This document shows, in pieces, positions 2,558 through 29,092 of a stretch of DNA of 33,493 nucleotides. The DNA is taken from contig MKVR01000032.1 in NCBI GenBank assembly GCA_001899235.1, positions 1-33,493 on the forward strand, written 5' to 3'. This DNA is from Nitrosospira sp. 56-18 (GTDB lineage Bacteria; Pseudomonadota; Gammaproteobacteria; Burkholderiales; Nitrosomonadaceae). The position numbers and the translations under genes were made by a program. Below the pieces are notes generated by a model, which was not told the origin of the DNA, did not search any database, and was given only the letters and a program-made list of their open reading frames with translations. Each line of letters opens with the position of its first letter. The first letter of the stretch is position 1.

Positions 2558-2571
2558 TAGGAGAACGTGAA

Positions 2572-3416: not shown

Positions 3417-3423
3417 TCGCCGC

Positions 3424-12121: not shown

Positions 12122-12307
12122 GGTCCTTGCTCCACAAAAGTTAAGGAAAACTACGCACCAGTGTCATTTGGCCCTTCCATGTATCCCCCTTTTACCATCA
12201 GCCCTTATCTTTTTCCGTCGTCGGTCGTTCATCAGCGGCCAAGCTGACCGGTTCATCCTTATATGGGCCGGACTATGACCCTGGATTATGCGGATGCCCC
12301 GAATTTC

Positions 12308-12335
12308 AACATATATCACGGCTTCCGATTGTCAA
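12308..12335 (-). promoter_or_regulatory. candidate promoter for the PEP-CTERM gene
   Basis: On the minus strand TTGACA (complement of 12330-12335) is followed after 16 nt by TATGTT (complement of 12308-12313). The -35 is perfect and the -10 is 4 of 6. It would leave a leader of about 180 nt before the ATG at 12121. Confidence 0.35.
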
Positions 12336-12426
12336 GCTGAGCTGGAGAGCGATATGCGATGCCTGCTCGGTGGCATCCATCGTCATCCGCAGGATGTTGT
12401 TGAAGGCGGTTTACCGGTGGGAGAGC

Positions 12427-12454
12427 TTGACAAAGCGCGGGACTGATCTATAAA
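12427..12454 (+). promoter_or_regulatory. sigma-70-type promoter for the giant-protein operon
   Basis: TTGACA at 12427-12432 and TATAAA at 12449-12454 are separated by 16 nt. This is a near-consensus housekeeping promoter, 37 nt before the protease ATG at 12491. No equally good site was seen between the five downstream genes, so it probably drives the whole cluster. Confidence 0.65.
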
Positions 12455-12490
12455 TACAAAAAGCGGAAATAGCGGGAGCGGGAACAGCCC

Positions 12491-14428
12491 ATGTCAACGA
12501 TCTGGAACAAGCTCGACTCCGGCCTCTCATCGATCTACCTGAATTATCTCCAGGTAAAGGAGAAGGGCAGGGCTTCGGTCGCTCGCGTGCATCCAGCGGT
12601 GGCGGCAGGCGGACGGGTCAATGTATCGCTGCAATACGCCGGCGACCTGGCGCAGATCGAAGCGCTGGGATTCCAGACCATATGGAACACGGGAAACGGG
12701 GGCGCCACCGGGAGCGTGGACCTGGCCGATCTCGAGCGCATTGCCGCCCATCCGGGGGTACTGAAGCTGTCTTTCGGCAAGAAGCCGAAGCTGCACCTCG
12801 ACAAGAGCATTCCCAATATCTCGGCGGACCAGGTATGGAGCCGGTCCGGCGAAACCTTCAGCGGTGACACCGGCGCGGGTGTCATCGTCGGCATCATCGA
12901 TACCGGTGTGGATATCTTCCATCCCTACCTGCGCAAGGCCGGTCCTCCACAGGAGACGCGCATCCTGCGCATCTGGGACCCCGGCCTCGAACCGGAAAGC
13001 GGCGATACCCAGCCTGATCCGTCGCTCCTGAGTGCGCCGGGCCCCACCTATGGCGTCGAGTATGACCGCGCCAAGATCATGGCCGCGCTCGGCGGGCTCG
13101 GTAACTTCCGCCATCGAGATTGTGCCGGCCACGGCACGCACGTCGCTTCCACCGCCGCGGGAAACGGACGGGACAAATACCAGTATATTGGCGTGGCGCC
13201 CGAAGCGGACCTGATCATCGTCAAGGCGCTTTACCTGAAAAAATACCCGCAAATGGGCGGCACCGATATTCCATTCGACCAGCTCTTCCGGGACGCGGTG
13301 TCCTATATCCTGAACGTCGCGAAAAACGTATTCAGCAATCGTCCGGTAGTAATCAATTGCAGCTTTGGCAGCGACACCGGTCCGCATGACGGATTTACCG
13401 ATGAGGAGGATTTCCTGACGAACAAATTCGCGGGAGCCACCGGCCAGGTGCTGGTGCAATCCGCCGGGAATTCCGCCGGAAGCCAACAGCATGCGCGCAT
13501 AGAATTTCCCTCCGGTGGCGGATCGGTGGATATCCCGGTCGAATTGATCGACGATCGAACCAACCGGATCGAATACAACCGCTGCGAAGCGGAGGATGAA
13601 ACGGAAGCGCAATCGATCAAGCTCTACTATCCATCCGGAGGGACCGAAATTTCGGTGAAACTGCAGCTTCCTTTTGGGGAAGGCGGTCCTATCAGCGGAC
13701 CATCGTTCGGCGGGACACCCGTGACGAGCACGTTTGGCAGCGCTCAGCAATATTCCCTCCAACATTCGGCTGAAAACCAGACCCTGCGGTGGACCAGCCG
13801 TGGAACGGTGAACAGGAACCTGTTCGAGGTGGAAATTACGCCCAATGCCAGCAAGCTTCACAGGGCAGGAACGTACACCCTGACCGTAAGCGCGCCGGAC
13901 GCGCTGACCGTCCATCTCTGGTGCGAGCAATCGGATTATGGTTTTTTCATCGGAACACCTTCCTCGGCCATTGCTCATGTGGAGGACACCCATCTGGTGG
14001 GAGACAATGGCGGCGCCGACAACATCATCACCGTGGCGGCCTACGATGCGGAAACCGCCACGCTTCCCATCGCCCGCTTTTCGTCGCGAGGGCCGCTGGT
14101 CGATTACAACAGCGGGCTGGCGCAGCCGGCCAAGCCTGATATCGCCGCGCCCGGTGTGCATGTGGATGCGGCCAAGAGCAAGGATTCACAGCCGAGGCGC
14201 AAGAAAAAATATGTCGTAGGAATGAGCGGGACCAGCATGTCGGCCCCGCATGTGACCGGAACCGTAGCCCTGATGCTGCAGAAAAATCCGGCATTGACCA
14301 TCTCGCAGGTGATGAGTACGCTCAAAGGCAATGTTCAGCCGGTAACGATTCCCATCGATCCGACAACTGCGGACGAGGCCGGGGCCGGAAGGCTCGACGC
14401 CAAGCTGGCCTTTGACCATACACCCTGA
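12491..14428 (+). CDS. subtilisin-like S8 family serine protease
   Basis: A 645-aa S8 peptidase with an intact catalytic triad: Asp137 in GIIDTGVD, His214 in GHGTHVAS and Ser582 in SGTSMSAPHV. The oxyanion Asn327 sits in SAGNSAG. Residues about 40-100 (VNVSLQYAGDLAQIEALGF ... LERIAAHPGVLKLSF) look like an I9-type propeptide, suggesting autocatalytic activation. An insertion of roughly 170 residues (about 340-510), predicted beta-rich, separates the Asn and Ser blocks. There is no signal peptide, which is unusual for a subtilase. GGGA at 12480-12483 and GGGAG at 12474-12478 lie upstream. It is the first gene of a five-gene unit, so maturation or trimming of the giant downstream proteins is a reasonable inference, not shown by the sequence. 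Confidence 0.93.
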   Translation: MSTIWNKLDSGLSSIYLNYLQVKEKGRASVARVHPAVAAGGRVNVSLQYAGDLAQIEALGFQTIWNTGNGGATGSVDLADLERIAAHPGVLKLSFGKKPKLHLDKSIPNISADQVWSRSGETFSGDTGAGVIVGIIDTGVDIFHPYLRKAGPPQETRILRIWDPGLEPESGDTQPDPSLLSAPGPTYGVEYDRAKIMAALGGLGNFRHRDCAGHGTHVASTAAGNGRDKYQYIGVAPEADLIIVKALYLKKYPQMGGTDIPFDQLFRDAVSYILNVAKNVFSNRPVVINCSFGSDTGPHDGFTDEEDFLTNKFAGATGQVLVQSAGNSAGSQQHARIEFPSGGGSVDIPVELIDDRTNRIEYNRCEAEDETEAQSIKLYYPSGGTEISVKLQLPFGEGGPISGPSFGGTPVTSTFGSAQQYSLQHSAENQTLRWTSRGTVNRNLFEVEITPNASKLHRAGTYTLTVSAPDALTVHLWCEQSDYGFFIGTPSSAIAHVEDTHLVGDNGGADNIITVAAYDAETATLPIARFSSRGPLVDYNSGLAQPAKPDIAAPGVHVDAAKSKDSQPRRKKKYVVGMSGTSMSAPHVTGTVALMLQKNPALTISQVMSTLKGNVQPVTIPIDPTTADEAGAGRLDAKLAFDHTP

Positions 14429-14449
14429 TGCATTCAATGGATCGCGCAA

Positions 14450-17400
14450 ATGGCCACTGATTCCATCTACCTGGTTCGACTGGCATCCTGGCTGGGAAAA
14501 GCGCTTGGTGCGGGTGCCCCGCTTTTCCATGAATTCTCCACGGATGCCCTCGGGTTGGAGTTGCCTGCCGCCGTCACGCACGCACCCGCCGTGGCTTCGG
14601 CCCTGGGCCAGGCGGAAGCAGCTGCAAACAAGGCGGGAGAGGCTGCCACAGATATGGCAGCCGCCGACGAGGCTGGGGACGATCTCCAGATATTGGCCGC
14701 GCTGATACGGTTTGCCTCGACGCTTGTCGAGTTCTACCATGCGCTGTCCAGCTTGATCAGCGCCATCCAGGCCAATCTGACGGCCGCGACCATACCCGAT
14801 GCAGCAGCCAGGGCCTCCGCGCAAGCATTCGCGGCCGGCCTGGCGAAAAAGATCAGCGATTACGCCATTGCCTCGGCCATCACGGAGCGCGTGCCGGAAC
14901 TGGCATACGGACTCAAGCTGCTGGGCCTGCTCGACTGGGAACACCAGGGCTACAACAGCGGCGACAGCCTGAGCCGTTCATACGTGCGCAAGGGCCTTCG
15001 GCTCGACCGCGTGAAAGGGTTGATCGGCGATCCCGAAAAGCACTTTCGCGAAACCCTGGGCTGGGGAGACCCCGGTTTCGACCCGACCGGTTTTTTCCGG
15101 GTGATCCGGGGGTTTTTTCACGAGGAAGATGATATCGAGATCGGCGAGGAAGCGGGCGAACCCTTTCTCAAGGGCTGCCTGCTGGTCCGTCGCGATTCTT
15201 CCGTTTCGCCGCCGGGCCTGCGCCTGACCCTGATCGGCGATTTCGATGCCGACCGTTCGCAACGCCTCCGCCTCGCCGATGAGTGGGGTTTTGTCACTGC
15301 TTCCAGTTTCCGCATGGTTGGCGGCGTGTCGGGGCAGATCAGGCCACCGCTGACCATCACATTGCAGCCGTTGTCCGGTTCGATCACAGGGGAGCTTCGC
15401 ATCTTCTTCGAGCGCAACGAGGAGGCGAGGCCTTTCCAACTCATCGGCGGCACGGGCGGAACGGTTTCGCTATCGGCAAACAACATCCAGGCGGGCGTGG
15501 GCTTGAAGGCAGAGGTGGGTACGGGCGGCAGCGCTACCCTCGATCCGCTGCTATTCGCCGACATCGACCGCCTGGCGCTGCATCTTGGTTCCTCGGACGC
15601 GGACGGCTTCATTGCCAGGCTGCTTGCCGCCGCCGATATCGAAGGAGAATTCGACCTGGGACTGGAGTGGCAGGCCAGCACCGGTTTACGGGTCAAGGCG
15701 AGCGGTGGCATCGAGATCGCGCTGCCGATCCACAGGCAGCTGGGGCCCATCGATTTCCAGACCCTTTACCTGGCATTGCGCATTCTTCCCAATGGATCAC
15801 TGTCCCAGGAAGTTTCCGCCGGCCTTGCCGGCAACCTTGGGCCGCTGCACGTCGCCATCGAACGCATGGGCGTGCTCATGGACCTGCGGTTCGCGGAAGG
15901 CGTGGATGCCAGATTCGGGCCTTTCGATACGGCGCTCGGCTTCAAGCCGCCGAACGGCGTGGGCCTGGTGGTGGATGCGGGCGTGGTGACGGGCGGCGGC
16001 TATCTTTATTTCGATTTCGACCGGGGCGAGTATGCGGGTGCGCTCGAGCTTTCCATTGCGGGCATCGTGACGGTAAAAGCCATCGGAATCATCACCACCA
16101 GGATGCCCGATGGCTCGAAAGGTTTTTCCCTGCTCATCATCATCACGGCCGAGTTCGGCACCGGAATCCAGCTTGGTTTCGGTTTTACCCTGCTGGGAGT
16201 AGGCGGTCTTCTGGGACTCAACCGCACGATGAACCTGCAGTCGCTGATGGAGGGGGTGCGCAGCGGCGCGATCAACAGCATCATGTTTCCCCAGAACCCG
16301 GTGGAGAATGCGGCAAGGATCATCAGCGACCTGCGCATCATCTTCCCCCCTTATGAAGGAAAATTTCTTATCGGCCCGATGGCCAGGCTGGGCTGGGGTA
16401 CGCCCATGCTCGTCAGTATTTCCCTGGGCATCATCATCGAGATACCGGGCAATATCGCCATCGTGGGCGTATTGAAGGTCGCCCTTCCGGCGGAAGACGC
16501 GCCGCTGATCGTCATCCAGGTGAATTTTGCAGGCGCCATCGAGTTCGACAAGAAGCGGCTCTATTTCTTCGCATCGCTGTTCGAATCGCGCATCCTGTTC
16601 CTGACCCTCGAAGGAGAAATGGGGTTGCTGGTGGCGTGGGGCGACGACGCCAACTTCGTGGTATCCGCCGGGGGGTTCCATCCGCGCTTCAATCCGCCAC
16701 CGCTGCCATTCCCCAGCCCGCGGCGCATTGTCGTCAGCATCCTCAATACCGACGTCGCACGCATACGCACTGAGACCTACTTTGCGGTGACATCCAACAC
16801 CGTGCAATTCGGTTCGCGCACAGAGGTCATGTTCGACGTCGGCGTGGCGCGAGTGGATGGGCACCTGGCTTTCGACGCGCTGTTCCAGTTTTCGCCATTC
16901 TATTTCATCATCGAAATATCGGCTTCCGTTTCACTTAAGGTATTCGGCCTGGGCCTGTTCAGCATCCGGCTCCAGTTCGCGCTGGAAGGACCCACTCCCT
17001 GGCGTGCGCATGGCACCGGCACTCTCAGCCTGTTCTTTTTCGACGTATCCGCCGATTTCGATATCACCTGGGGCGACAGCAAGGACACCACTTTGCCACC
17101 GATCCCGGTCATGCCCTTGCTCCGTGCCGAAATCGACAAGCTGGAAAACTGGAAAGCCGAACTGCCGATCAACAACAATCTGCTGGTATCGCTGCGCAAG
17201 CTGCCAGAAGGGGAAACCGCGCAAGTGCTGCATCCGCTGGGGTCGTTGCGTATCAGCCAACGCGCCGTGCCGCTCGATCTCAAAATCGATAAGGTGGGCA
17301 ACCGAAAACCCGCGGACGCCAATGAATTCATGCTTGCTCCGACGGCTGGCCTGGTGAAGGCGGTCGATGCCGACGAGCAATTCGCAAAAGCCCAGTTCCT

Positions 17401-17863
17401 GGATATGAGCGACGCGGAAAAACTGTCGCAACGGGCATACGATCCATTGCACGGTGGCGTGGTGCTGGCCTCCGGCACGCAGCAGCTGGGCGCGGCAAAA
17501 TTGGTGAAGCGCAGGGTGCGCTACGAGCAGATCATCATCGACAGCAACTACAAACGCTTCCGTCGCCGGTTCAAGATCTTCACTGCCGGGTTCTTCGATC
17601 ATTTCGTGAAAAGCTCGGCAATATCAAACTCTTTATTATCAAATAGTTATACGACAAAGCTCGACCCTTTCGAGGATAAGATAAAAGTAAGGGAAGGCGG
17701 CTTTACCGTAGCGCTCGTGGAAAACAATCGTCCTTACAGCACGTCTGCAGCCTATTTCTCCAGCGAAGCGCTGGCCAGCCGGTTTATTGCCGAGCAGGTA
17801 TCCGCCAAACCCGAGCTGTATGAAACCCTGCACGTGGTGCCTCAATATGAGGCGAGCATATGA
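14450..17863 (+). CDS. DUF6603-type giant beta-rich protein
   Basis: An 1137-aa protein. The segment at about 517-593 (GYLYFDFDRGEYAGALELS, then ITTRMPDGSKGFSLLIIITA, then a Gly-rich GFGFTLLGVGGLLGLNRTM) matches what I remember as the DUF6603 signature; the function is unknown. An Ala-rich helical N-terminus (1-180) is followed by about 700 residues of alternating amphipathic beta-strands (for example RLYFFASLFESRILFLTLEG and FIIEISASVSLKVFGLGLFS). That pattern could build a barrel, a beta-solenoid or a hydrophobic groove. The C-terminal 200 residues are more polar. There is no signal peptide. It starts 21 nt after the protease stop with a weak ribosome site, suggesting coupling. Its stop overlaps a 19-codon micro-ORF. 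An AT-rich patch at about 17620-17690 departs from the gene's usual codons. Confidence 0.85.
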   Translation: MATDSIYLVRLASWLGKALGAGAPLFHEFSTDALGLELPAAVTHAPAVASALGQAEAAANKAGEAATDMAAADEAGDDLQILAALIRFASTLVEFYHALSSLISAIQANLTAATIPDAAARASAQAFAAGLAKKISDYAIASAITERVPELAYGLKLLGLLDWEHQGYNSGDSLSRSYVRKGLRLDRVKGLIGDPEKHFRETLGWGDPGFDPTGFFRVIRGFFHEEDDIEIGEEAGEPFLKGCLLVRRDSSVSPPGLRLTLIGDFDADRSQRLRLADEWGFVTASSFRMVGGVSGQIRPPLTITLQPLSGSITGELRIFFERNEEARPFQLIGGTGGTVSLSANNIQAGVGLKAEVGTGGSATLDPLLFADIDRLALHLGSSDADGFIARLLAAADIEGEFDLGLEWQASTGLRVKASGGIEIALPIHRQLGPIDFQTLYLALRILPNGSLSQEVSAGLAGNLGPLHVAIERMGVLMDLRFAEGVDARFGPFDTALGFKPPNGVGLVVDAGVVTGGGYLYFDFDRGEYAGALELSIAGIVTVKAIGIITTRMPDGSKGFSLLIIITAEFGTGIQLGFGFTLLGVGGLLGLNRTMNLQSLMEGVRSGAINSIMFPQNPVENAARIISDLRIIFPPYEGKFLIGPMARLGWGTPMLVSISLGIIIEIPGNIAIVGVLKVALPAEDAPLIVIQVNFAGAIEFDKKRLYFFASLFESRILFLTLEGEMGLLVAWGDDANFVVSAGGFHPRFNPPPLPFPSPRRIVVSILNTDVARIRTETYFAVTSNTVQFGSRTEVMFDVGVARVDGHLAFDALFQFSPFYFIIEISASVSLKVFGLGLFSIRLQFALEGPTPWRAHGTGTLSLFFFDVSADFDITWGDSKDTTLPPIPVMPLLRAEIDKLENWKAELPINNNLLVSLRKLPEGETAQVLHPLGSLRISQRAVPLDLKIDKVGNRKPADANEFMLAPTAGLVKAVDADEQFAKAQFLDMSDAEKLSQRAYDPLHGGVVLASGTQQLGAAKLVKRRVRYEQIIIDSNYKRFRRRFKIFTAGFFDHFVKSSAISNSLLSNSYTTKLDPFEDKIKVREGGFTVALVENNRPYSTSAAYFSSEALASRFIAEQVSAKPELYETLHVVPQYEASI

Positions 17864-17919
17864 ACGGTAACAGCGCGAGGAAGCGAATGACGGACTTTCA
17901 CCCTATGAGTAAAAGCTAG
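17860..17919 (+). CDS. 19-codon micro-ORF linking two giant genes
   Basis: ATG at 17860 overlaps the previous stop as ATGA. The frame reads MNGNSARKRMTDFHPMSKS and stops with TAG at 17917-17919, 3 nt before the next ATG at 17923. Inside it, GAGGAAG (17877-17883) is correctly placed for an in-frame ATG at 17887. The downstream giant gene has no good ribosome site of its own. This suggests ribosomes are passed across the junction by terminating at the TAG and restarting. The peptide itself may have no function. Confidence 0.4.
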   Translation: MNGNSARKRMTDFHPMSKS

Positions 17920-17922
17920 CCC

Positions 17923-20900
17923 ATGGCGAAACCGATCGGCACCTATTCCTTTCTTCCGTACCTGCGCCTGGGGCTCGCGAACAAGATCAGCCAGCCGGAC
18001 CAGGACGCGGTGAAGCTGCGCGCCACGTTCGACCTGCAATTGTCGCTGGAAGGCAAGGCGATAAATGGCGGAGAGCCTCTCAAGGCTGACATTTCCAAGC
18101 CGGTCCAGCTCTACGGGCCGGGAGACGTCGTTGGCATCGATCCGCGAGCCATATTCAAGACCGAGCCGCTGAACTGGATCACCAATTTCGAGGCCAATTA
18201 CCTTCCGTACATCGATTTCTACGAAGAGGATTTCCCCTGGCGTTATACGCCGAACCGCCCGGATGACGCGTTGAACCGCCTGCGCCCGTGGATTGCGCTG
18301 GTGGTTCTGGAGGAAAGCGAGTTCGAAGACGGCAAGAACGTGAAAGACAAGCCTTTGCCTTTTATCCACGTCGAAAATCCGGCCACGGTTTTTCCGCCCG
18401 CCCAGCAGCTTTGGGCCTGGGCGCATGTCCATGTCAATCGCGACCTCGCCGCAAGCGACGCGGAAATCGTTTCGAGCAACATGAACGCAGTCCTGCCAAA
18501 GCTGGACAATGCGCTGAAGCAGAATGCCGATCTTGCCTACGCACGCCTGCTTTGTCCACGAAAGCTGAAACCCGATAGCGCCTACCATGCCTTTCTGATG
18601 CCGGCCTTCGAAAGCGGAAGGCAGGCCGGCCTCGGGTTTGAAGTCAATCCGGATTTCGCCAGCCAATATGCCTGGGGCGAGAAACCGGACCAGCTCGATT
18701 TTCCTTACTACCACCGCTGGTATTTCCGCACCAGTTCCATTGGCGATTTCGAATACCTGGTGCGGCTGCTGAAAGCCAAGCCCGCTGACGATCGGGTGGG
18801 GCGGCGCGACATGGATATGCAGGAACCGGGCTGGAATCTTCCAGGGCTGGACCCCTCGGGGCCGCTCGGCGGCATACTCAAGCTGGGCGGGGCGCTGCGA
18901 GTTCCCGAAGAGGTAATCCGCGATATCGATGAATTCAATAAATATGAGCACTGGGCCGATAATGGTTATCCCCAGCCCATCCAGACAGCCATCGCGCAAT
19001 TTCTGAACCTGGCTGACGATTACCAGAAACCGGGCGCGAATCCCGAAATCATCCCGGATCCGGAGAATCCGCCCGATCCCGATCCGCTGATTACTCCGCC
19101 GCTATACGGGCGCTGGCACGCGGCGGTGGAGCGGCTGCTCAAGGATGCAGGCGGCGCGGACCTGCCCAACAACAGGAACTGGATACACGAACTCAACCTC
19201 GATCCCCGATTTCGCGTATCCGCCGGTTTCGGCACGCGGGTCATCCAGGACAAGCAGGAAGAATACATGAACATGGCCTGGCAGCAGGTGGGCGAGGTGA
19301 TCAACGCCAATCGCCTGATCCGTTTCGCGCAGCTGGGCAGCGAAGCGCTCTGGCAATGGCATGCGCGAAATTTCCAGCCGCTCCTCGCTCAACGGGCGGA
19401 CAGGCTGATGCTTATCAGCGCACCGGTGCAGAAGCGCATCCTGGTACAGAACACCACCGTTTTCCAGCAAGTCAGGATGAGCCGGGTGCCGCCCGTGGCG
19501 GTTTCGGCGCAGATGCGAAAAACCATGCGTCCCCGTGCCCGCATCGTGCGCAAGTTACCGTTCTCGACCCGCGGTATCGCTCCGGAAACGGTGATTTCCC
19601 GCCTGAATTCAGGCGAATTGCTGCCTGCGCCACCCAAGTCGACCCCTTCGGGAATCCAGACCGAGCAGGTGCTGGCCGACCAGGTCCAGCCGCCCATCGA
19701 GCCGAAGTGGCTGGCGGACCTGGTGCGGCAATATGCCTGGCTTCCCGCCGCTACCCTGGCACTGGGGATCGCCATCGCGCTGCTGGCATTGCTGCTGGCG
19801 CCCGCTCTGCCCCTGGCGATCCTGGGCCTGGGCGCGGCCGCGGGATTGCTGGGCCTGTACGCCGTGATGAACCGGATACTGCCGCAACTGGCGAAGCCGC
19901 AGGTTTTCGGGGACGACGGGCGGCCGGGGTCGGCCGCTCCTCCACCTGCGGCGGTGGACACTGCGCCCAAAAGCCTGGACTTCCGCATCGCTGAACCCGG
20001 AGAAGCGGCCAGGCCCACAGTGGGCACGACGGACAGCGTGGAGGCGCAGCGGCTCAAGGCGGCGGTAAAGGAGATGTATGCCGTGGATACCGCCGCGCGC
20101 GCGGCGGCAACCCTTCCTCCCAAGCAGCCGCTGAACCTGAGTGTGCTGGCGGTGGAAACGCTCGCGGCGTTGCATCCGGATCGCACCGTTCCACGCCTGG
20201 TGCTGGACAGGATTCTGTTGCCCGGGCGCATCCGCGACCGCTTCAATCCGCAGGTGTTTGACGAGGTGATGAATTATCCGCGGTTCGACTTGCCGATGTA
20301 CAAGCCCTTGTCGGACCTTTCCTCCGAGTATTTCCTTCCGAACATCAACCTGATCGAGCAGAACAGCATCACGCTGCTGGAGACCAACCAGAAGTTCATC
20401 GAGTCCTACATGGTGGGCATCAATCATGAAATGGCGCGCGAATTGCTATGGCGCGAATACCCGACTGATCAGCGCGGCAGCTACTTCCGCCAATTCTGGG
20501 ATGTCAGCGGCTATCTCCCCGAATCCGGGGAGGATCTCGCCAATCTGAAGGAGAAGCTCAGGGATATTCCCGAACTGCACCGCTGGCTGCCCGCTTCCGC
20601 ATTGGGGGATCATGACAATCGGGAGGAAGGCGGTGCCAAGGAGGAGGAAGTGGTGCTCGTGATCCGGGGGGAGCTGCTGAAAAAATATCCCACGGCCGTC
20701 ATCTATGCGCACAAGGCCAAGTGGCAGATGAAAACGAATCCCGACGGCACGCCAGGCAACGTCATCGACAATACGAAGGAGCGGGATCTGGCGGACATAC
20801 CGGAGGGCCTGGAGGACAACCCACCGCGCACGCTCGTCAAGACTCCACTTTACAGCGCCAAGATCGACCCTGATATCTACTTTTTCGGTTTCGATCTGAC

Positions 20901-21303
20901 ATCGGAAGTTGCCAAAGGCAGCGATGGCTCCCACCCGGGCGACGAAGACAAGCCCGGGTGGTTTTTTGTCATCAAGGAGCGTCCGGGCGAGCCCCGGTTC
21001 GGGCTCGACATCGGCGGTCCCACCTCCGAAAAGCACACCTGGAGCGATCTCTCATGGGAAGATGCGACGCCCGCCTTGCCGGAGGGGGGATTCCTCCAGA
21101 TTACCGGTGCGACGGCGCCGATCGGGCTGACGCAGCCCACCGATACCAGCCAGGCGGAATTCGAGGAAGAACTCGAGCAATACAAGGAGGATGTGCAGGT
21201 TGCCTGGCGCAAGGAGGCCGATGCCGCGGACCTCGCCTACATACTGTACCAGGTGCCGGTCATGGTAGCCGTGCATGCCAGCGAGATGCTCACCGTCAAG
21301 TAA
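17923..21303 (+). CDS. 1126-aa protein of unknown function with central hydrophobic segment
   Basis: I do not recognise a characterised family. Residues 1-590 are soluble, Trp/Asp/Pro-rich (LNWITNFEANYLPYIDFYEE, LRPWIALVVLEESEFEDG). Residues about 606-652 are strongly hydrophobic (ATLALGIAIALLALLLAPAL, then AILGLGAAAGLLGLYAV) and could form two membrane helices or a hairpin. A Pro/Ala linker follows, then a second soluble half with a conserved-looking block (VGINHEMARELLWREYPTDQ, VVLVIRGELLKKYPTAVIYA) and an acidic helical region near 1085. There is no N-terminal signal peptide. The ATG has no clear Shine-Dalgarno site and may depend on the upstream micro-ORF. It is the third gene of the cluster; a membrane-contacting structural or pore role is speculation. 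Confidence 0.85.
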   Translation: MAKPIGTYSFLPYLRLGLANKISQPDQDAVKLRATFDLQLSLEGKAINGGEPLKADISKPVQLYGPGDVVGIDPRAIFKTEPLNWITNFEANYLPYIDFYEEDFPWRYTPNRPDDALNRLRPWIALVVLEESEFEDGKNVKDKPLPFIHVENPATVFPPAQQLWAWAHVHVNRDLAASDAEIVSSNMNAVLPKLDNALKQNADLAYARLLCPRKLKPDSAYHAFLMPAFESGRQAGLGFEVNPDFASQYAWGEKPDQLDFPYYHRWYFRTSSIGDFEYLVRLLKAKPADDRVGRRDMDMQEPGWNLPGLDPSGPLGGILKLGGALRVPEEVIRDIDEFNKYEHWADNGYPQPIQTAIAQFLNLADDYQKPGANPEIIPDPENPPDPDPLITPPLYGRWHAAVERLLKDAGGADLPNNRNWIHELNLDPRFRVSAGFGTRVIQDKQEEYMNMAWQQVGEVINANRLIRFAQLGSEALWQWHARNFQPLLAQRADRLMLISAPVQKRILVQNTTVFQQVRMSRVPPVAVSAQMRKTMRPRARIVRKLPFSTRGIAPETVISRLNSGELLPAPPKSTPSGIQTEQVLADQVQPPIEPKWLADLVRQYAWLPAATLALGIAIALLALLLAPALPLAILGLGAAAGLLGLYAVMNRILPQLAKPQVFGDDGRPGSAAPPPAAVDTAPKSLDFRIAEPGEAARPTVGTTDSVEAQRLKAAVKEMYAVDTAARAAATLPPKQPLNLSVLAVETLAALHPDRTVPRLVLDRILLPGRIRDRFNPQVFDEVMNYPRFDLPMYKPLSDLSSEYFLPNINLIEQNSITLLETNQKFIESYMVGINHEMARELLWREYPTDQRGSYFRQFWDVSGYLPESGEDLANLKEKLRDIPELHRWLPASALGDHDNREEGGAKEEEVVLVIRGELLKKYPTAVIYAHKAKWQMKTNPDGTPGNVIDNTKERDLADIPEGLEDNPPRTLVKTPLYSAKIDPDIYFFGFDLTSEVAKGSDGSHPGDEDKPGWFFVIKERPGEPRFGLDIGGPTSEKHTWSDLSWEDATPALPEGGFLQITGATAPIGLTQPTDTSQAEFEEELEQYKEDVQVAWRKEADAADLAYILYQVPVMVAVHASEMLTVK

Positions 21304-21324
21304 ACGCAAGGAAGGGAAAAGTCG

Positions 21325-24300
21325 ATGGCAGAATTCCAGGACGCGCAGCGGAAGCTGTCTCAAACCCGGGCCGCCCGTGACGAGGCGGCGCGTGCGCTAT
21401 TCCTTGCGGGGGAGCAGCTCAAGCAGGTGGCATCGGAAATGGAAGCGCTCGGCCGCTGGGCCAGCCCGGACAATGCGCAGAGCCTTGAGCAGCGCCAGGC
21501 ACTCGAAGCGCGAAAAAGCCGCCTGGAGAACCTTGAAAAGGAACGGCAACAGCGCCTCGATGCCATCAAGGGTGAGCTGGCGGATATAACCGGCCTCTTC
21601 CAGGATACGTGGTCCGACCCGCGCCGGCAAATGGAGAAAATGGATGACGGCATCCCCATCATGCTCTTTCCCTTGCGGCTGGAAACGCGTTTCAAAGCCC
21701 TGGATGCCGGAGGCGCGGATGGAGCCGCCGGCCGTGCGCAGCAGCTGTGGGTGCGCATCTACCCGGACGAGTGCCTGGTGGATACATTCGAGGAAACACT
21801 GTCGCAAACCGAACTCCACAGCGCGACCATCTTCTGGCGCGAATATTTCCATGCGGCGGGGGATGAAGCAACGGAACGCGCCGCATGGCGCGCGCTGGTC
21901 GCCAGCCACGGATCGGGGCGGGCAACCTGGATCATCGGGCAATTCCGCCCGCTCAACCCCCTCCGGCCGGACGATCCGCTGGGCAATCCCGCGCTGGAAC
22001 TCAAGCCACAATCCAGGACAGCCGGAGAAGTCATCCTGGTCATTACCGCCGACGAGAGCCTGGCGGATTCGGAGAAAGCTGCGCTGACCCCCTACTGGAT
22101 TGCCATCTGGCAGGCGGAGGGGCGCAACAGCCTGGAAGGGCTTGCCCGGGATGCGCTTGCCGCAGCCGTGGGCGCGGAGCGTGCCGCGCAGCTGATCGCG
22201 CAGTTTGCTCCCTATAACCTCGCGGAGCAGCCGCCGGCGGGATATACGCGCGTCAGCGCCACGGTGCGCACATCTTTCCTGTTTTTGCCGAAAAAGGAAG
22301 ACATCGATACCAAAACCCGGTCCTGGATGCAGGCCGCGAAAGCGGAACTGCTGCCGGAACGGTTTGTCCTGCTGGGCTACCGCGATGGCGTCCAGGTGCT
22401 GAATCAACTCGGCGAGCCGGTGCAGGTGCCATTTTCGGTCAGCCCCGACCCGGCGGGTACACCCGAGTCCCAGTTTCAGTTCGATGAGAATGGCAACCTC
22501 GAACTCGGCGATGAAATGCGATGGATGACGGATTTCGATGAAGCGGTGCGCCGCGGCATGGGTTTTCGCGTGGAACTGACGCCATCGCTTGCGGCGGGAT
22601 TCGACCGGTTGTTTGTCCTGGGAATCCGCCTGAGCGCGGATGCCGGTAAAGGCAAGGATGAGCTGGATACTTTGTTCCGCCACCACTATTTCAGCAGGAG
22701 CGGCTTTTCCTTTTTACCCCAGGGCGCGGCCACCAACAATACCGACGATGGCAACTCCGCCTATTCGCGCGAGGACGATGCCGACAGCAGCTACGATTTC
22801 GTTTTCAGGGGATTGGGGCAGTTCAGCGAGACGGACGATCTCATGGAAAAGCGCGATGGCCAGTGGTTCGCGGAAAGCCTCGGCCTGGATGCATCGGACT
22901 GGCTGAAGCAGGTCCCTCGCGCCGGAGGGCGGGACCAGGGCGAAGCGCGTGCAATGAATACCGCCCTGTGGCCGGCCACCCTTGGCTACTTCATGGATAC
23001 CCTGCTGCAACCAGTTTTCAGCGACGATGCCATCTACTATACCCGCTGGTTTTTCAATCGATTCGTCAGCGGCCGCGGCCCGATCCCTGCCATCCGCATC
23101 GGCCGCCAGCCTTACGGCATCCTTCCGGCGGCGGCCATCAGCAGGGCCCGGTGGATATCCGGCAAGGAGAAGATCTCCATCGATTATTCCCGCCGCTTGC
23201 TGGAGCAGCGCGGCACATCATTCCTGGATTGGCTGGCAAAGTTCAAGGACGTGCTCGACCGGCTCAATGCCATCTGGCGGAGTCTTGCGGGGCAGGCGGC
23301 CCATGTCGGCGTGGAGGGCGGGGCAGGGGCGACAGACGGCACGGGCGACACAGACCCGCACCAGGAACTGCTCGATATCGTGGGACTGCATCCCGCCTCG
23401 GTGGAATTCCACCAGCGCTATGCCAGTACCCAGAAGCAGGAACACAATATCGCCGCCATGTGGCAACTGTTCATTTCCTGGCAGACGCTGCCCGCCAACG
23501 AGCTCCATAACGAGGCGTTCACCCTGCTGCGGCAATTGGGTTATTCCGGGCTGGAGACGCCGAAACTGTTCGACCTGTTCTGGAAGATTTTCCCCAACCG
23601 CCTCAATGGTCCGATCATCCAGGAAGGACCGCTATCCGAGGTTGATCCGCTGCGGATCGTGACGACGAGTAAGCGCAACTACATCGAATGGCTGCATGAG
23701 TGGGCGCGCCTCTCATTCGAGACCATACGCGTCCAGGATGGGTTCCTGGACAATAAATGGCCCAATTCTCTCCTCTACATCCTGCTCAGGCATGCACTCG
23801 AGCTCGGCTACCACGATGCCGGCATCCGCGTGCTGGACGATGCGCAATTGCTCGATGAGCCCGGGAGAAGATCGCTGCGCACCGAGCCGCATTTCTTCCA
23901 GATCGAGGGTGCGAACACCGGTGCAGCCGGGGGCGGTTCGGCGCCCGAGAAAAGCCGCTACGAAATGCTTTATACCCCGAACCAGCAGGTAACCGGCGAT
24001 TCCCGCATGCTGCTGGCCGATTATCTCACCCGGAACATCGGTGTGCTTTTCGGTACCCGCCACCTTGCCGAGCAGATCGCCGCCCTGGACAGGCTTGCGC
24101 AAACCCCTACCGCCCGGCTGGAACGCCTGCTGGCGGAGCATCTCGATTGCTGCGCCTACCGGCTCGATGCCTGGACTACGGGCCTTCTCGGCTTCCAGCT
24201 TGCTTCGATGCGGCATGCACCTGCCGCCGAAGCCGCCGGACCCGCGGAAAATACCGAAGGCGGACGGGTAACTGCAGAGCCGCGTGCGGGTTGGCGCAAG

Positions 24301-27093
24301 GGCATCTATCTGGGTGCATACGGCTGGCTGGAAAACGTGCGCCCCGAAAACAAGGAGCTGGCTGCGGTCACGCTGAGCGAAGAACTGGATGAAATATTCA
24401 ACAAACAGCAGCCCGCAGGGCAAAACGAGCCGCTATTCAGCGACAGCAGCAACGAGGGTTATATTCACGCCCCCTCGGTCAATCATGCGGTAACCGCGGC
24501 AGTGCTGCGCAATGGATACATCGCCAATGCCACTCCCGCGCAACCGGACCTGCTGAAGGTGAACCTTTCCTCGGAGCGGGTACGGCTTGCGCTGGGCATC
24601 ATCGAGGGAATCCGCAACGGCCAGAGCCTGGCCGCCTTGCTCGGTTACCAGTTCGAGCGCGGGTTGCACGACCGCTATGCCTTCGCCGAAAGCGACCAGT
24701 TCATCTATCCCTTGCGCAGCGTTTTTCCGTTATACACGCGTGCGGAAGACATTCCCGAAGGAACTTCCATCGAAGCGGTCCAGGCGCGCAATGTCGTCCA
24801 TGGACTGGATCTCCTTCGCCGTGCAAAGAACGCCGATACGGCAAGCAGGAAATACCCGTTCGGTTTTCCTCCCTCGAAGCTGCCGCCTGCCAGCTCGGCG
24901 CAGCAAGCGGTCCTCGATGCGGAAGTCGACCGCCTGCTGGATCTTTACGACGCCTTGGCGGATCTCGCGATTGCGGAGGGCGTGCACCAGGTGGTCATGG
25001 GCAATTACGACCGGGCTGCCGCAACGCTCGATGCTTACAGCCAGGCTACCTTTCCGCCGGTACCCGAAGTGGTGCAGACGCCGCGCAGCGGCATCGCGCT
25101 CACCCATCGGGTTGGGCTGCAACTCGATACAAACATTCCGGTAGTCCCAAGTGACAATCCGCGCGCCAGGGCCGAACCGGCCATCAACCGCTGGGCCGCA
25201 ACCTTATTGCCGGATGCCGCGCGGCTCGGCTGCAGGGTGGGTTATGCCGATCCGGCCACCGGTAATCCGCAGGTCATCCACGTGACCCAGGCGGACCTCG
25301 GCCTGCAAGCGCTCGATCTGATCTATATCATGCGGGCGGAAAACCCGGAAGCACGCTCGGAGCTGGAAGACCGCATCCGCGATTTCGCTTTTACCCACCC
25401 TATGGTGAAACCCAGGCCGGATCTTCCGCTGGAAATCTCCTATCTTGAAGGTGCCACGGGAGATTTCAGTTTTTTCGAGGTTGGGCCGCTCGTCCGCGGC
25501 CTGCGCGCGCTCGCGCTGCATTCCCGGCCGTTGCAAGCCGTGGATATGGCGCTCCCTACCGAAGGGAAGGAGGATGCCGCCAGCGGTAGCACGCTGCGGC
25601 GCGATCGCGTTGATTTTCTTCCCACAGCGCTGGCAGCCATCCGGACGAACCAACTCCTGCCTCTCCAGGGCCAGCTCGATGCTGTCTTTCCGGAGCCGGG
25701 GCCGGTCATCGCGACCATATTGAGCGATATCGACCAATACCTGGAAGGCATCATCGCCGCCTGCCGCGAGATTGCCCGGTATGGGTTGCCGCAGACGGAG
25801 TTCGGCCTGTTTTACGAAACGAAGGGCAACCTGTTCGCGCAGCTGCTGAAGAAAGTGGCGGATACCGCCGGGCGCTTCCAGAACAAACTCGATGAGTATG
25901 AAGCGCTGATGGGCACGCTGCCTGCGCAGCCGGGAGAAGAAGAACGCAAAGCCCTGTTGCTCCAGGCCGAGCGGCTGATCTCGACCACCTATACCGATCC
26001 GGCGGGGCAGAGCTCGGCGCAGGTTCTGGCAGCGGTGCAGGCAAAGGAAACGGCTTTCCGGTCCCGCCTGACACTGCTCAAGGGCATGGAAAAAACCGGC
26101 GAAACCACGCTCAGCGGGCTGCTGACGACATGCAGGAGCCTGCTGGCGGTGGCGGATTTTGACCTGGCCCCGGTGAGCATCACTGAGGATGAAAAGCAGG
26201 TGGTCATTCTGGCGGAAGACATCCGCAGCCGTGCCCGGCAGCTTGCTGCCGATCTGGATGCGCGCGCAGGGGCGGTTACGCAGAAATTGGCCGAGCATGA
26301 TGTCGCCGCCGACTCCGCCAAGCGTGTACAAATTCTTACCGAAGCCGCGCGCGCGGTATTTGGCGAGGAATTCGTGCTGGTTCCCTCATTCAGTCTTCCG
26401 GACAAGCAGGCGGAAGAATGGGCGAATGCCTACGCCAGCCGCGCGGCTCTGCTCGATTATCAAAAAAATGACCTGAAAAATGAGTTTCCCGTGGATGACT
26501 GGTTATACGGCGTGGCCAGGGTGCGTGAAAAAATGCATCACCTGGAAAATCTCGTCTTTCTTGCCGAGGCACTGGGCACATCCGCGCCCAACCTGCAGCC
26601 TATCCAGCTGCCGCATGCCCCTGCCGGTCCCGGTGGTTCCGCCGCAACCTGGATGGCCCTGGAATTCCCGCCCGCCGCCAAGGATAAGCTGGAGCGGGAG
26701 CTGCTGCTTTACACCGCGCATTATTCCCGGGATTTCGACAAAACAAAGCCGCAGTGCGGCCTTCTGCTGGACGAATGGACCGAGGTCATACCGACGGATA
26801 CCGAGACGACCGGCGTCGCATTCCATTTCGACAAGCCTAATGCCGAGCCTCCGCAAGCCATCCTGCTGGCATTGCCGGCGGAGTTCACGGGCGCGTGGAA
26901 ATGGGAGGATCTCGTCGACTCTCTTGGAGAGACGCTCGACCTGGCCCGCTCCCGCGCCGTGGAACCGCAGCAGCTCGACCGGACGGCGCTTTCCGTATTT
27001 CTTCCCGCAACCATCCTGGCGACAGCCTGGCGGCCGATCACCATCGCCGCGGACTTGTCCCTGGTGAATCAGTATGTAGGAAAAATCCCATGA
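21325..27093 (+). CDS. 1922-aa protein of unknown function with terminal coiled coils
   Basis: The largest gene in the window. Residues 1-92 form a charged coiled coil (AEFQDAQRKLSQTRAARDEA, LEARKSRLENLEKERQQRLD). The body starts at PIMLFPLRLETRFKAL and holds Trp-rich mixed alpha/beta sequence. Noticeable motifs include IPAIRIGRQPYGILPAA near residue 590, TGLLGFQLASMRHAPA near 960 and VGYADPATGNPQVIHVTQAD near 1310. Residues about 1470-1690 are again helical and coiled-coil-like. The C-terminus (about 1770-1922) is beta-rich and ends in a hydrophobic LPATILATAWRPITIAADL. There is no signal peptide or clear membrane span. AAGGAAGGGAAAAG precedes the ATG, a good ribosome site. The stop overlaps the next start as ATGA. 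I know no family function; size and coiled coils suggest a scaffold. Confidence 0.85.
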   Translation: MAEFQDAQRKLSQTRAARDEAARALFLAGEQLKQVASEMEALGRWASPDNAQSLEQRQALEARKSRLENLEKERQQRLDAIKGELADITGLFQDTWSDPRRQMEKMDDGIPIMLFPLRLETRFKALDAGGADGAAGRAQQLWVRIYPDECLVDTFEETLSQTELHSATIFWREYFHAAGDEATERAAWRALVASHGSGRATWIIGQFRPLNPLRPDDPLGNPALELKPQSRTAGEVILVITADESLADSEKAALTPYWIAIWQAEGRNSLEGLARDALAAAVGAERAAQLIAQFAPYNLAEQPPAGYTRVSATVRTSFLFLPKKEDIDTKTRSWMQAAKAELLPERFVLLGYRDGVQVLNQLGEPVQVPFSVSPDPAGTPESQFQFDENGNLELGDEMRWMTDFDEAVRRGMGFRVELTPSLAAGFDRLFVLGIRLSADAGKGKDELDTLFRHHYFSRSGFSFLPQGAATNNTDDGNSAYSREDDADSSYDFVFRGLGQFSETDDLMEKRDGQWFAESLGLDASDWLKQVPRAGGRDQGEARAMNTALWPATLGYFMDTLLQPVFSDDAIYYTRWFFNRFVSGRGPIPAIRIGRQPYGILPAAAISRARWISGKEKISIDYSRRLLEQRGTSFLDWLAKFKDVLDRLNAIWRSLAGQAAHVGVEGGAGATDGTGDTDPHQELLDIVGLHPASVEFHQRYASTQKQEHNIAAMWQLFISWQTLPANELHNEAFTLLRQLGYSGLETPKLFDLFWKIFPNRLNGPIIQEGPLSEVDPLRIVTTSKRNYIEWLHEWARLSFETIRVQDGFLDNKWPNSLLYILLRHALELGYHDAGIRVLDDAQLLDEPGRRSLRTEPHFFQIEGANTGAAGGGSAPEKSRYEMLYTPNQQVTGDSRMLLADYLTRNIGVLFGTRHLAEQIAALDRLAQTPTARLERLLAEHLDCCAYRLDAWTTGLLGFQLASMRHAPAAEAAGPAENTEGGRVTAEPRAGWRKGIYLGAYGWLENVRPENKELAAVTLSEELDEIFNKQQPAGQNEPLFSDSSNEGYIHAPSVNHAVTAAVLRNGYIANATPAQPDLLKVNLSSERVRLALGIIEGIRNGQSLAALLGYQFERGLHDRYAFAESDQFIYPLRSVFPLYTRAEDIPEGTSIEAVQARNVVHGLDLLRRAKNADTASRKYPFGFPPSKLPPASSAQQAVLDAEVDRLLDLYDALADLAIAEGVHQVVMGNYDRAAATLDAYSQATFPPVPEVVQTPRSGIALTHRVGLQLDTNIPVVPSDNPRARAEPAINRWAATLLPDAARLGCRVGYADPATGNPQVIHVTQADLGLQALDLIYIMRAENPEARSELEDRIRDFAFTHPMVKPRPDLPLEISYLEGATGDFSFFEVGPLVRGLRALALHSRPLQAVDMALPTEGKEDAASGSTLRRDRVDFLPTALAAIRTNQLLPLQGQLDAVFPEPGPVIATILSDIDQYLEGIIAACREIARYGLPQTEFGLFYETKGNLFAQLLKKVADTAGRFQNKLDEYEALMGTLPAQPGEEERKALLLQAERLISTTYTDPAGQSSAQVLAAVQAKETAFRSRLTLLKGMEKTGETTLSGLLTTCRSLLAVADFDLAPVSITEDEKQVVILAEDIRSRARQLAADLDARAGAVTQKLAEHDVAADSAKRVQILTEAARAVFGEEFVLVPSFSLPDKQAEEWANAYASRAALLDYQKNDLKNEFPVDDWLYGVARVREKMHHLENLVFLAEALGTSAPNLQPIQLPHAPAGPGGSAATWMALEFPPAAKDKLERELLLYTAHYSRDFDKTKPQCGLLLDEWTEVIPTDTETTGVAFHFDKPNAEPPQAILLALPAEFTGAWKWEDLVDSLGETLDLARSRAVEPQQLDRTALSVFLPATILATAWRPITIAADLSLVNQYVGKIP

Positions 27094-28997
27094 GCGATCC
27101 GCTGATCATACGCAACCTGCCGGAGGTCTTGTCCGGAAGCGTCCTGTTTCCCACGCTTACCCGCTACAACCGCCTGGAAAGCCGTCCCCGGACGGATAAT
27201 TTCAGCCGAGCGCTGCGCGCGGAAGTACGGGATGCCCTGTGGATGCTCTGCAAACAGTGGCAAATGGGTGAATTCGAGGGTGATGATGCCGGCACGCCTA
27301 TCTATGCCAAGCTGCATGCAGAGGGCCGGCAGCTATCCCGATACCGGCCGCAAGGCGGGGCGCCCCGGCCATTTGATACCAAAGCGCCGCTGGAAGCCAC
27401 GGTGGAGCGGCGCGCCATTCCTTTCACGGCGGGAGCGCAGCTGCTCTCGCTGGATCTGCGGCTGCAGATGGGGCGGCGCTGGCTGAAAATGATTCCGGCA
27501 TCGGCGGCGGACCCGTTCAAGTCAGGATATCCCTTCCCCCGTCCCGATCCGGCTACGAAGGCGGATGCGGGGATATGTGCGCATGCGGATGCCTGGCAGC
27601 AATTCCAGGCAATAGCCGGCCGGGCCATGGACGGGGCGAAGCTTTATTTTCATCTGAAGGAAAACCCGGCGAATCTCGCTTCGGACGGGATCGGAGGATT
27701 GTCTGCTGGCGACAAATCGGCCGCGGATGAGGCCGGACCCCGCTATGTGGCGTGGTTTGAAAAACTTTATTTCATTCCGCCGGAAGAGCATGAGGACGCC
27801 TGGCAGCCGGTGCGGCTGGAATACCAGTTCGCGTGCGCAGCGCCCGACGGCGAGGGCAAGGAAAAGGTGCTGGCCGCCGAGGAGTACTACCATGAACATC
27901 TGGACTGGTATAACTTCGATTGGGATAAAACCCGGCAGAGCCTGGACGATACGCTCGAGAATCCGGAAGTTCCGGCGGGCCTCACTCTGGAAAAGCCGTA
28001 CCTCACGCGCAGTTTCATTCCTTCGCCGGTACGCTTCAACGGCATGCCCGACACGCGCTGGTGGGCGTTCGAGGACGGCAAGACCAATTTCGGCGATATC
28101 AAACCCGGAACTACTGACCTGGCAAAGCTTCTCCTCATCGAGTTCGGCCTGGTCTATGCAAATGACTGGTTCCTGTTTCCATACACTGTTCCGGCGGGTT
28201 CGATCCTGAATATAAAAGGCCTGGCGATCACCAATACGTTCGGAGAACGCTTCTGGATACAACCGGCCGGCCGTGGCGCGGACGACAGCTGGCAGCGCTG
28301 GACGATGTTCAGCCTGAATATCAAGGGAGCCAAGGATGAGCCGGCAGACCTTACCCTGCTGGTTTTGCCGACTGCGCCGAAAGTGCAGGAAAGCCCGCCG
28401 CTGGAACAGGTTGCGCTCATCCGTGATGAAATGGCGAACATGGTCTGGGGTATAGAAACGGCGGTGCCCATGCCGCAGGGTGGAAGCCGGGAAGGCAATA
28501 TTGCCGCAGCGGAATATCACGGCTACCTCCAGGCGCTGCTCGATCAGCAGAACGCTGCAACTCCGCCTGCCCCGAAAGAGTGGAAAGCGCCTTTCCGCTA
28601 CAACATCATGACCACCGTGCCGGAAAACTGGATTCCATTCGTGCCCGAACATGTCCCGGGCAGCCAGCGGCAAATCCAGCTGCGCCGCGCTGCCATGCCG
28701 CGCTACCTTGAAAATGATCCTGCGCCTTCGTTCGAGCGCGTACGTCCCCGTACCACTCTGCTGCGCGAGGGCCTGGAGGCGGGAAAGGCTTATCATATCC
28801 ATGAGCAGGAAGTGCCCAGGGCGGGCGTGCAGGTGTTTCAATCGTTCCAGCGCACGCGCTGGAACGACGGCAGGGTTTTTACCTGGCTTGGCGCCAGGAA
28901 ACGCACCGGCCGTGGGGAAGGGCATAGCGGCCTCGCTTTCGACCAGATCCTGCCCGTGCCGCCCAAGGGTGGGTCATCCGGCAGTCCGCAAGGGTAA
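27090..28997 (+). CDS. 635-aa protein of unknown function, last gene of the cluster
   Basis: The frame is open from 26895, but I chose the ATG at 27090: it overlaps the previous stop by 4 bp and has TAGGA 8 nt upstream. The protein begins MSDPLIIRNLPEVLSGSVLF and contains ALRAEVRDALWMLCKQWQMG near residue 40-60, an unusual Trp-rich helix. Later segments include RSFIPSPVRFNGMPDTRWWA, LLLIEFGLVYANDWFLFPYT, IRDEMANMVWGIE and NWIPFVPEHV. No catalytic motif, signal peptide or membrane helix is evident. The dense Trp/Tyr/Phe content points to a compact structural protein. I do not recognise its family. Strict coupling to the 1922-aa gene suggests the two products interact. Confidence 0.85.
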   Translation: MSDPLIIRNLPEVLSGSVLFPTLTRYNRLESRPRTDNFSRALRAEVRDALWMLCKQWQMGEFEGDDAGTPIYAKLHAEGRQLSRYRPQGGAPRPFDTKAPLEATVERRAIPFTAGAQLLSLDLRLQMGRRWLKMIPASAADPFKSGYPFPRPDPATKADAGICAHADAWQQFQAIAGRAMDGAKLYFHLKENPANLASDGIGGLSAGDKSAADEAGPRYVAWFEKLYFIPPEEHEDAWQPVRLEYQFACAAPDGEGKEKVLAAEEYYHEHLDWYNFDWDKTRQSLDDTLENPEVPAGLTLEKPYLTRSFIPSPVRFNGMPDTRWWAFEDGKTNFGDIKPGTTDLAKLLLIEFGLVYANDWFLFPYTVPAGSILNIKGLAITNTFGERFWIQPAGRGADDSWQRWTMFSLNIKGAKDEPADLTLLVLPTAPKVQESPPLEQVALIRDEMANMVWGIETAVPMPQGGSREGNIAAAEYHGYLQALLDQQNAATPPAPKEWKAPFRYNIMTTVPENWIPFVPEHVPGSQRQIQLRRAAMPRYLENDPAPSFERVRPRTTLLREGLEAGKAYHIHEQEVPRAGVQVFQSFQRTRWNDGRVFTWLGARKRTGRGEGHSGLAFDQILPVPPKGGSSGSPQG

Positions 28998-29019
28998 TTT
29001 CCCTGCCCGCAATTTTATT

Positions 29020-29048
29020 CCGACACCGCCAGGCGCATCCCGTACAAT
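29020..29048 (+). promoter_or_regulatory. candidate promoter for the alcohol dehydrogenase gene
   Basis: CCGACA (29020-29025, 4 of 6 to the -35 consensus) and TACAAT (29043-29048, 5 of 6) are 17 nt apart and lie 44 nt before the ATG at 29093. This gives the gene its own start separate from the giant-protein cluster. Confidence 0.45.
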
Positions 29049-29092
29049 TCGCGAGACTGCAATGCATGCCAACTCTATCGATAGGGGGACAA

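Follow-up and report, generated by a model that had tools for sequence, protein, structure and literature searches.

A constant DUF6603-P3-P4-P5 core with an exchangeable enzyme slot: a candidate modular protein machine of bacteria and haloarchaea

What four very large proteins encoded in tight succession behind a protease gene might accomplish together is the question raised by a five-gene operon of Nitrosospira sp. 56-18. The operon lies on contig MKVR01000032.1 (assembly GCA_001899235.1), and the whole stretch analysed here, positions 1 to 33,493 of the forward strand, is termed the window. Its five open reading frames (ORFs) comprise 645, 1137, 1126, 1922 and 635 amino acids (aa), 5465 aa in total, with junctions of 21, 59, 21 and -4 nucleotides (nt); layout, lengths, coordinates and junctions given in a first-pass annotation were all confirmed from the ORFs. 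That annotation was right in what it observed, and the finding is larger than it stated: judged from sequence comparison, the operon almost certainly represents a modular system of core plus cassette, in which the protease is cargo-like rather than a processor of its neighbours. The features concerned are the following.

12427..12454, + strand: promoter-like TTGACA-16 nt-TATAAA, read by eye, 36 nt upstream of the first start codon
12491..14428, + strand: slot enzyme, an S8 subtilase of 645 aa with motifs D (GIIDTGVD), H (GHGTHVAS) and S (GTSMSAPH)
14450-17863, + strand: DUF6603 protein (P2), 1137 aa, second operon gene
14450..15890, + strand: N-terminal ~480 residues of the DUF6603 protein, putative adaptor half linked to enzyme class, predicted as a helical bundle followed by beta strands
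15890..15950, + strand: approximate cassette boundary at DUF6603 residues ~480-500, where class linkage drops to near chance
15950..17863, + strand: C-terminal, constant part of the DUF6603 protein, predicted as a giant amphipathic antiparallel beta meander
17923..21303, + strand: P3, core protein, 1126 aa
19735..19848, + strand: hydrophobic hairpin of P3, about residues 605-642
21325..27093, + strand: P4, core protein without family, 1922 aa
27090..28997, + strand: P5, core protein, 635 aa

A search of 84,980 species genomes for relatives of the operon yielded 433, the best 80 of which were used for comparison; gene order was read wherever the contig allows a view. DUF6603 precedes P3 in 73 of 74 cases, P4 comes after P3 in all 78 and P5 after P4 in 68 of 69, at median gaps of -4, 11 and -6 nt. 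These loci cover 14 bacterial phyla, and core relatives in other phyla share 31-73% identity with the window proteins; with order and tight spacing repeated so far beyond chance, the layout is not accidental. Among 72,556 plasmid records, P3 occurs on 13 (Streptomyces, Nocardia, Rhizobium, Paraburkholderia, Gemmatirosa and four haloarchaea), DUF6603 on exactly those 13, and P5 on the same 13 plus one more. Eight of the 13 were inspected and display the order DUF6603-P3-P4-P5 on a single strand, with some core genes split and with P5 not recognised in one of them (L005; L numbers denote sampled loci). Additionally, 248 genomes of one order were compared, a set centred on a genome picked as operon bearer, which is itself among the positives: P3 is present in 8 genomes, P5 in the same 8, and DUF6603 in 17, namely those 8 and 9 others. 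Identical P3 and P5 sets have a probability of 1/C(248,8) = 3e-15, assuming independent genomes. Hence, P3 and P5 travel together in this set, and DUF6603 has a second context. Gene order thus identifies DUF6603-P3-P4-P5 as a constant core at the level of sequence.

The first-pass annotation had proposed that the products belong to one system, which is strongly supported by the fixed order in 14 bacterial phyla and on haloarchaeal plasmids as well as by the identical P3/DUF6603 plasmid sets and P3/P5 genome sets. Its suggestion to follow co-occurrence and gene order of all five families was borne out in part, as the four-gene core is conserved across distant phyla while the S8 protease is not. 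The large families would have been expected to keep together; P3 and P5 always do so in the 248 genomes, whereas nine of the 17 genomes with DUF6603 have neither of the two. The products may also form a physical assembly, as the annotation assumed.

Directly upstream of this core, a same-strand ORF of at least 150 aa, ending within -400 to +150 of the DUF6603 ORF, was sought in the 76 loci with 700 bases of room and was found in 73 (242-1561 aa, ends at -116 to +279 nt from DUF6603). Classes could be assigned to 67 of these slot ORFs, the remaining six being L004, L005, L008, L020, L036 and L068. According to Pfam, the 67 classed proteins include 17 S8 proteases, four M64 peptidases, four PhoD-type phosphatases, three phospholipases D, three galactose/glyoxal oxidases and one tyrosinase; Trypsin_2 matched weakly in 9 of 67, one trypsin-like class counts 20 members, and the others are without family. 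In some loci, two or three slot proteases stand in tandem. On a P5 tree of 77 rows (14 without class; the L063 fragment excluded, L068 and L070 trimmed), enzyme class changes at least 34 times over the 63 classed rows, the minimum being 12 and the shuffled mean 39.8. Since a value as low was reached in 0 of 200 shuffles, some class clustering is present. The cores closest to that of the window by P5 differ in their enzyme: a Saprospiraceae genome with 72% identity in P5 carries an S8 protease, Nitrosomonas ureae a tyrosinase, and a further one a trypsin-like protease. L011 and L014 are 81%, 72% and 83% identical in P3, P4 and P5, yet contain different proteases. A crude signal-peptide heuristic, applied from the longest ORF start, was positive in 2/73 slot, 3/81 DUF6603, 0/90 P3, 1/88 P4 and 0/77 P5 ORFs. 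From this comparison, the position just before the core emerges as a slot occupied by enzymes of unrelated families, singly or, at times, two or three together.

What is exchanged along with the enzyme becomes apparent inside the DUF6603 protein. For 63 of the 67 classed loci (ORF length 1000-1300 aa, score over 600), a tree of DUF6603 residues 1-430 requires 13 class changes at a minimum of 12, and a tree of residues 541 to the end, built from the same 63 rows, requires 31. Class agreement between sliding nearest neighbours, determined for the 47 loci left after 60 had been thinned to a core identity below 85% and to classes of at least two members, amounts to 0.83-0.89 for residues 1-480, to 0.70 in the interval starting at 421, and to 0.15-0.36 over the remaining ~4,300 residues of DUF6603, P3, P4 and P5, chance being 0.21 with a standard deviation of 0.05. 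In the pairs L011/L014 and L022/L023, DUF6603 identity is 13-33% in the first 360 alignment columns, then 36-66%, and finally 86-95% in columns 541-900; for L011/L014 alone, the first 360 columns show 21-33% and columns 541-960 show 86-93%. Enzyme distances correlate with those of the DUF6603 N-half at r 0.95 for 19 of 20 trypsin-like and 0.91 for 14 of 17 S8 enzymes, L048 having been removed by hand as a different S8 type. Controlling for the C-half leaves partial correlations of 0.86 (trypsin-like) and 0.89 (S8), compared to 0.08 and 0.17 in the reverse case, and raw enzyme-core correlations of the S8 enzymes are 0.39-0.55. Based on the tree, neighbour and distance tests, the cassette therefore comprises the enzyme gene and the DUF6603 N-half, and the other unit the C-half and P3-P5: by these comparisons, the enzyme and the first ~480 residues are inherited and swapped together, while the remainder has another history. 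The tests bracket the boundary to about residues 430-540. In the simplest reading, each N-half would hold its own enzyme.

A further element accompanies many of the proteases, a C-terminal domain of ~125 aa, which is found in 20/20 trypsin-like and 8/17 S8 slot proteases. Of the 6144 ORFs in the loci searched, 37 bear the domain: 28 are slot ORFs and 9 are tandem genes further upstream, one of these nine having it in an internal position. A single query retrieved it from 2 of 72,556 plasmids, both bearing the operon, and it has no significant match in the PDB. Among the S8 rows of the N-half tree, the domain is absent from a clade of eight that includes the window and from L048, and is present in the other seven. 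Such a distribution would suit a domain that docks the enzyme.

In the sources searched, neither a function nor a solved relative of the core proteins is known. Pfam confirms the annotation with respect to the first two genes, PF00082 being matched by the S8 gene at E 1.4e-41 (143.1 bits, cut-off 21.8) and PF20248 by the DUF6603 gene at E 7.1e-132 (441 bits, cut-off 27, residues 427-989); the triad motifs claimed for the protease are likewise present as DTG, HGTH and GTSMSAPH, the S8 Asp/His/Ser motifs. For P3 and P5 of the window, Pfam gives nothing up to E = 1, and the only Pfam match of P4 lies below threshold; all NCBIfam and PHROGs matches of P2, P4 and P5 are sub-threshold or at E > 0.08. 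Profile searches against the PDB left P5 without a match, gave P3 a single one at chance level (E 2.3) and returned helical-bundle-like matches for DUF6603 and P4. With regard to the coiled coils mentioned in the annotation, the matches of P4 to coiled coils or helical bundles are weak. The P5 model reaches a predicted local distance difference test (pLDDT) of 81.7 and a predicted template modelling score (pTM) of 0.79, and Foldseek finds no match to it at E <= 0.001 in PDB or BFVD.

Two features hint at membranes or lipids. The faces of the 27 predicted beta strands of DUF6603 differ by 3.13 hydropathy units compared to 1.25 in shuffled strands, and the best structural resemblances of the model are ApoB100, porins and the FimD pore. 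Furthermore, the hydrophobic segment noted by the annotation corresponds to the P3 hairpin at about residues 605-642, and 74 of the 92 P3 ORFs or fragments include a hydrophobic stretch. The reported lack of export signals also holds, in that P2-P5 of the window show no signal-peptide-like N-terminus by a simple hydrophobicity test which did flag the neighbouring PEP-CTERM protein. If the DUF6603 C-part were an outer-membrane beta-barrel, an export signal would be expected; the crude heuristic for it was positive in 3/81 DUF6603 ORFs and in the control P0007 and negative for the window protein.

Taken as a whole, these observations can be read as a class of self-contained protein machine that has not been described so far and has reached at least 14 bacterial phyla and haloarchaea by horizontal transfer. 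Through exchange of an enzyme-plus-adaptor cassette, it would be charged with a protease (of several folds), phosphatase, phospholipase D, oxidase or tyrosinase, at least seven enzyme families in all, and would carry this enzyme to or through membranes by means of a giant amphipathic beta-sheet protein. We give this reading a probability of roughly 45%. In such a machine, the DUF6603 N-half would serve as the private holder of its enzyme, assisted in many systems by the shared C-terminal docking domain, while the DUF6603 C-half, a giant beta sheet with one hydrophobic face, and the P3 hairpin would engage membrane or lipid, and P3-P4-P5 would form the body of the vehicle. The enzyme, having no signal peptide, would stay in the cytoplasm of the producing cell until assembly and release of the complex, and would then attack extracellular polymers or other cells; the S8 protease would be the cargo in the case of the window. 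For the narrower proposition that the operon is one modular machine with an exchangeable enzyme and with holder, membrane and vehicle roles, the balance may tip either way, and delivery or display of the enzyme at membranes likewise has about even odds.

Several points weigh against the delivery machine. Export, delivery and membrane insertion are putative, no such step having been observed, and among the operon genes none could be recognised as serving lysis, receptor binding or secretion or as encoding an ATPase. The DUF6603 model has a pTM of 0.52, most of its porin and ApoB superpositions deviate by about 9-13 A root-mean-square (5.7 A over 248 residues for FimD), and beta meanders resemble many proteins. 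Of the 92 P3 ORFs or fragments, 18 lack the hairpin, among them those of the two haloarchaea and of four Streptomyces loci. The S8 protease of the window itself lacks the ~125-aa domain, whose docking role is read from distribution. Enzyme class retains some dependence on the core trees, values as low occurring in 0/200 (P5) and 1/200 shuffles (DUF6603 C-part), and the tree of the N-part is imperfect in that L066 and L078 (own classes) group with class X1, the M64 loci fall into separate groups and L048 lies away from the remaining S8 loci. Raw correlations of trypsin-like enzymes with the core proteins are also high (0.80-0.89), the partial correlation being calculated versus the C-half only. 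Finally, co-swapping could stem partly from recombination geometry because enzyme gene and N-half are neighbours.

Carried further, that last point becomes an explanation of its own, in which recombination in the conserved DUF6603 C-half moves all upstream sequence together with no physical matching of enzyme and N-half. It suits the adjacency of the two and a linkage that ends where sequence conservation begins; we nevertheless regard it as distinctly unlikely, given that the N-half tracks enzyme divergence within classes (r 0.95, 0.91), that between classes it differs far more than the C-half, that the ~125-aa domain of the S8 enzymes sorts with N-half clades, and that the exchangeable slot itself stays unexplained. 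The maturation of the four large proteins by the S8 protease, as put forward in the first-pass annotation, could draw on the canonical motifs of this protease and on its place as first operon gene. It has become highly improbable and is unsupported because the slot on related cores holds unrelated enzymes: the nearest P5 relatives of the window carry S8, trypsin-like protease or tyrosinase, and phosphatases, phospholipases D or oxidases fill the same position elsewhere.

Alternatively, the loaded hydrolase or oxidase might be displayed or stored on a fixed multi-enzyme scaffold, intracellular or at the surface, for polymer breakdown or nutrition without delivery into other cells. The slot enzymes with a family are degradative or oxidative, alpha-L-rhamnosidase or glycosidase genes adjoin P5 in L059 and L016, and annotated core homologues bear surface-type names (BGTF surface, lamin tail, VCBS), all of which would fit; against it, the signal-peptide heuristic is negative in 71/73 slot ORFs, and in L107, a locus of the second operon type described below, a Bd3614-like deaminase lies directly upstream of DUF6603, a fold associated with polymorphic toxins and not with nutrition. 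Such a scaffold is thus considered unlikely, though a serious candidate. A defence or self-killing system, whose core senses an invader and activates an exchangeable effector in the producer's own cytoplasm, is improbable. Defence systems commonly show a patchy distribution, location on plasmids, enzymes in the cytoplasm and exchange of effectors, all of which are encountered here, and the S8 protease of the window matches the PADLOC models 'subtilase' and 'IetS'. For P2-P5, however, no PADLOC model of known anti-phage systems matched up to E 0.01, and no nucleoside triphosphatase, nuclease or nucleotide-signalling family was recognised in the operon. Moreover, galactose oxidase and tyrosinase would be unusual effectors, and the hydrophobic beta sheet would be left unexplained.

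The second context of DUF6603 is a smaller operon type, sampled in 11 other loci (L103 and L105-L114). The gene before DUF6603 is nameable in three of the 11, as a class-3 lipase in L105 and L109 and the deaminase in L107; weak upstream matches to metallo-beta-lactamase and endonuclease/phosphatase were obtained in L106 and L108, no enzyme was recognised before DUF6603 in L110-L112, and in L103, L113 and L114 this gene is divergent, cut by the contig end or outside the scan. DUF6603 ORFs of this type measure 867-3183 aa and are followed in eight loci (L103, L107, L109-L114) by a protein of 628-779 aa. By hhalign, the profile of this protein matches the N-terminal part of P3 at a probability of 86.8% (E 4e-6); further large unnamed genes come after it. 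As the second type repeats the succession enzyme-DUF6603-P3-like protein, these three may constitute the minimal unit, and the smaller sister form may be a simpler relative of the large machine.

Some loci show peculiarities. Core genes lie in two frames or are split into two ORFs in the plasmid copies L010 (16545-23293), L005 and L006. An orphan P5 with 46% identity to that of the window is located on a Streptomyces anthocyanicus plasmid (L091, 20001-21806), with no other core gene in the stretch and IS5 transposases about 4-6 kb away. In L014, a 238-aa protein with a twin-arginine-like N-terminus is inserted between P4 and P5 (19194-19910); the similar L013 lacks P5 in the examined stretch. 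Three DUF6603 genes are found in Leptolyngbya PCC 7375 (L103, L104); upstream of one of them lies a PhoD-type enzyme, which itself comes after another P4-P5 pair. Beyond P5, an M64 peptidase is present in L058, where DUF6603 is missing, a flavin adenine dinucleotide-binding protein in L040, and a rhamnosidase or other glycosidase in L059 and L016. A prophage or phage module was considered as well and set aside: none of 37 pattern matches in viral_contigs was confirmed, and the one positive among 50,697 phage records is an UNVERIFIED fecal scaffold. This record (L092, MT835531, 'Bacteriophage sp.', human faeces) contains P3-P4-P5 and is possibly a bacterial contig filed as phage.

The surroundings of the operon in the window are ordinary in the flanking genes scanned, including flagellar genes, a PEP-CTERM protein, an alcohol dehydrogenase and an ankyrin protein. 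Positions 536-5046 hold fliD, fliS, a fliK-like gene and a FlhB C-terminal-like protein with no relation to the operon, the PEP-CTERM gene (10988-12121, - strand) is divergent from it, and a 480-aa protein at 30676-32118 (- strand) consists of ankyrin repeats over nearly its full length. The genome has 3.29 Mb and carries P3 and P5 once each. The 'good promoter' of the annotation, TTGACA-16-TATAAA, is legible by eye, yet a consensus scan of 11500-29500 returned 5 sites versus 5.8 in shuffles and none on the + strand at 12427-12454, and hence does not lift it above chance; the scan demands T at the last position of the second hexamer, and the TATAAA read by eye ends otherwise.

A search of the available literature found no description of this system. 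The swap boundary offers a direct handle on enzyme-carrier matching, with the N-half as candidate enzyme holder. If delivery is true, this would be a new kind of protein delivery common to Bacteria and Archaea and independent of envelope type; if display or storage is all, it would still be a new enzyme-carrying assembly. Either way, many 'hypothetical' genes become testable as one system.

Among known families and systems, the closest link is PF20248 itself, of which the second operon gene is a member and to which Pfam assigns no function; here it shares an operon with three unnamed families, and its exchangeable N-half lies mostly outside the Pfam match. The ApoB100 beta belt, FimD, LptD and porin barrels resemble the DUF6603 sheet only in loose superpositions, the signal-peptide heuristic is negative for the window protein, and DUF6603 also occurs in organisms without outer membrane (haloarchaea, most Actinomycetota, Paenibacillus). 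With Tc toxin complexes and extracellular contractile injection systems, the operon shares several giant proteins, a signal-less cargo and a wide, patchy distribution. No Tc, sheath, tube or baseplate family was found among the five proteins by sequence-level searches of Pfam, NCBIfam, PHROGs and PDB profiles, and Tc toxins, extracellular contractile injection systems and the type VI secretion system (T6SS) were rejected for P2-P5 at the level of sequence, such searches giving no subunit homologue. Rhs, VgrG, PAAR, tube and sheath families are likewise absent from P2-P5 in Pfam, NCBIfam and PHROGs. The cargo exchange of polymorphic toxins, Rhs proteins and T6SS nonetheless bears a likeness in its constant vehicle, its exchangeable enzymatic part and recombination at a fixed boundary, to which the deaminase as cargo in one second-type locus adds. 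In contrast to these systems, the cargo is here encoded by a separate upstream gene and the putative adaptor is the N-terminus of the second protein.

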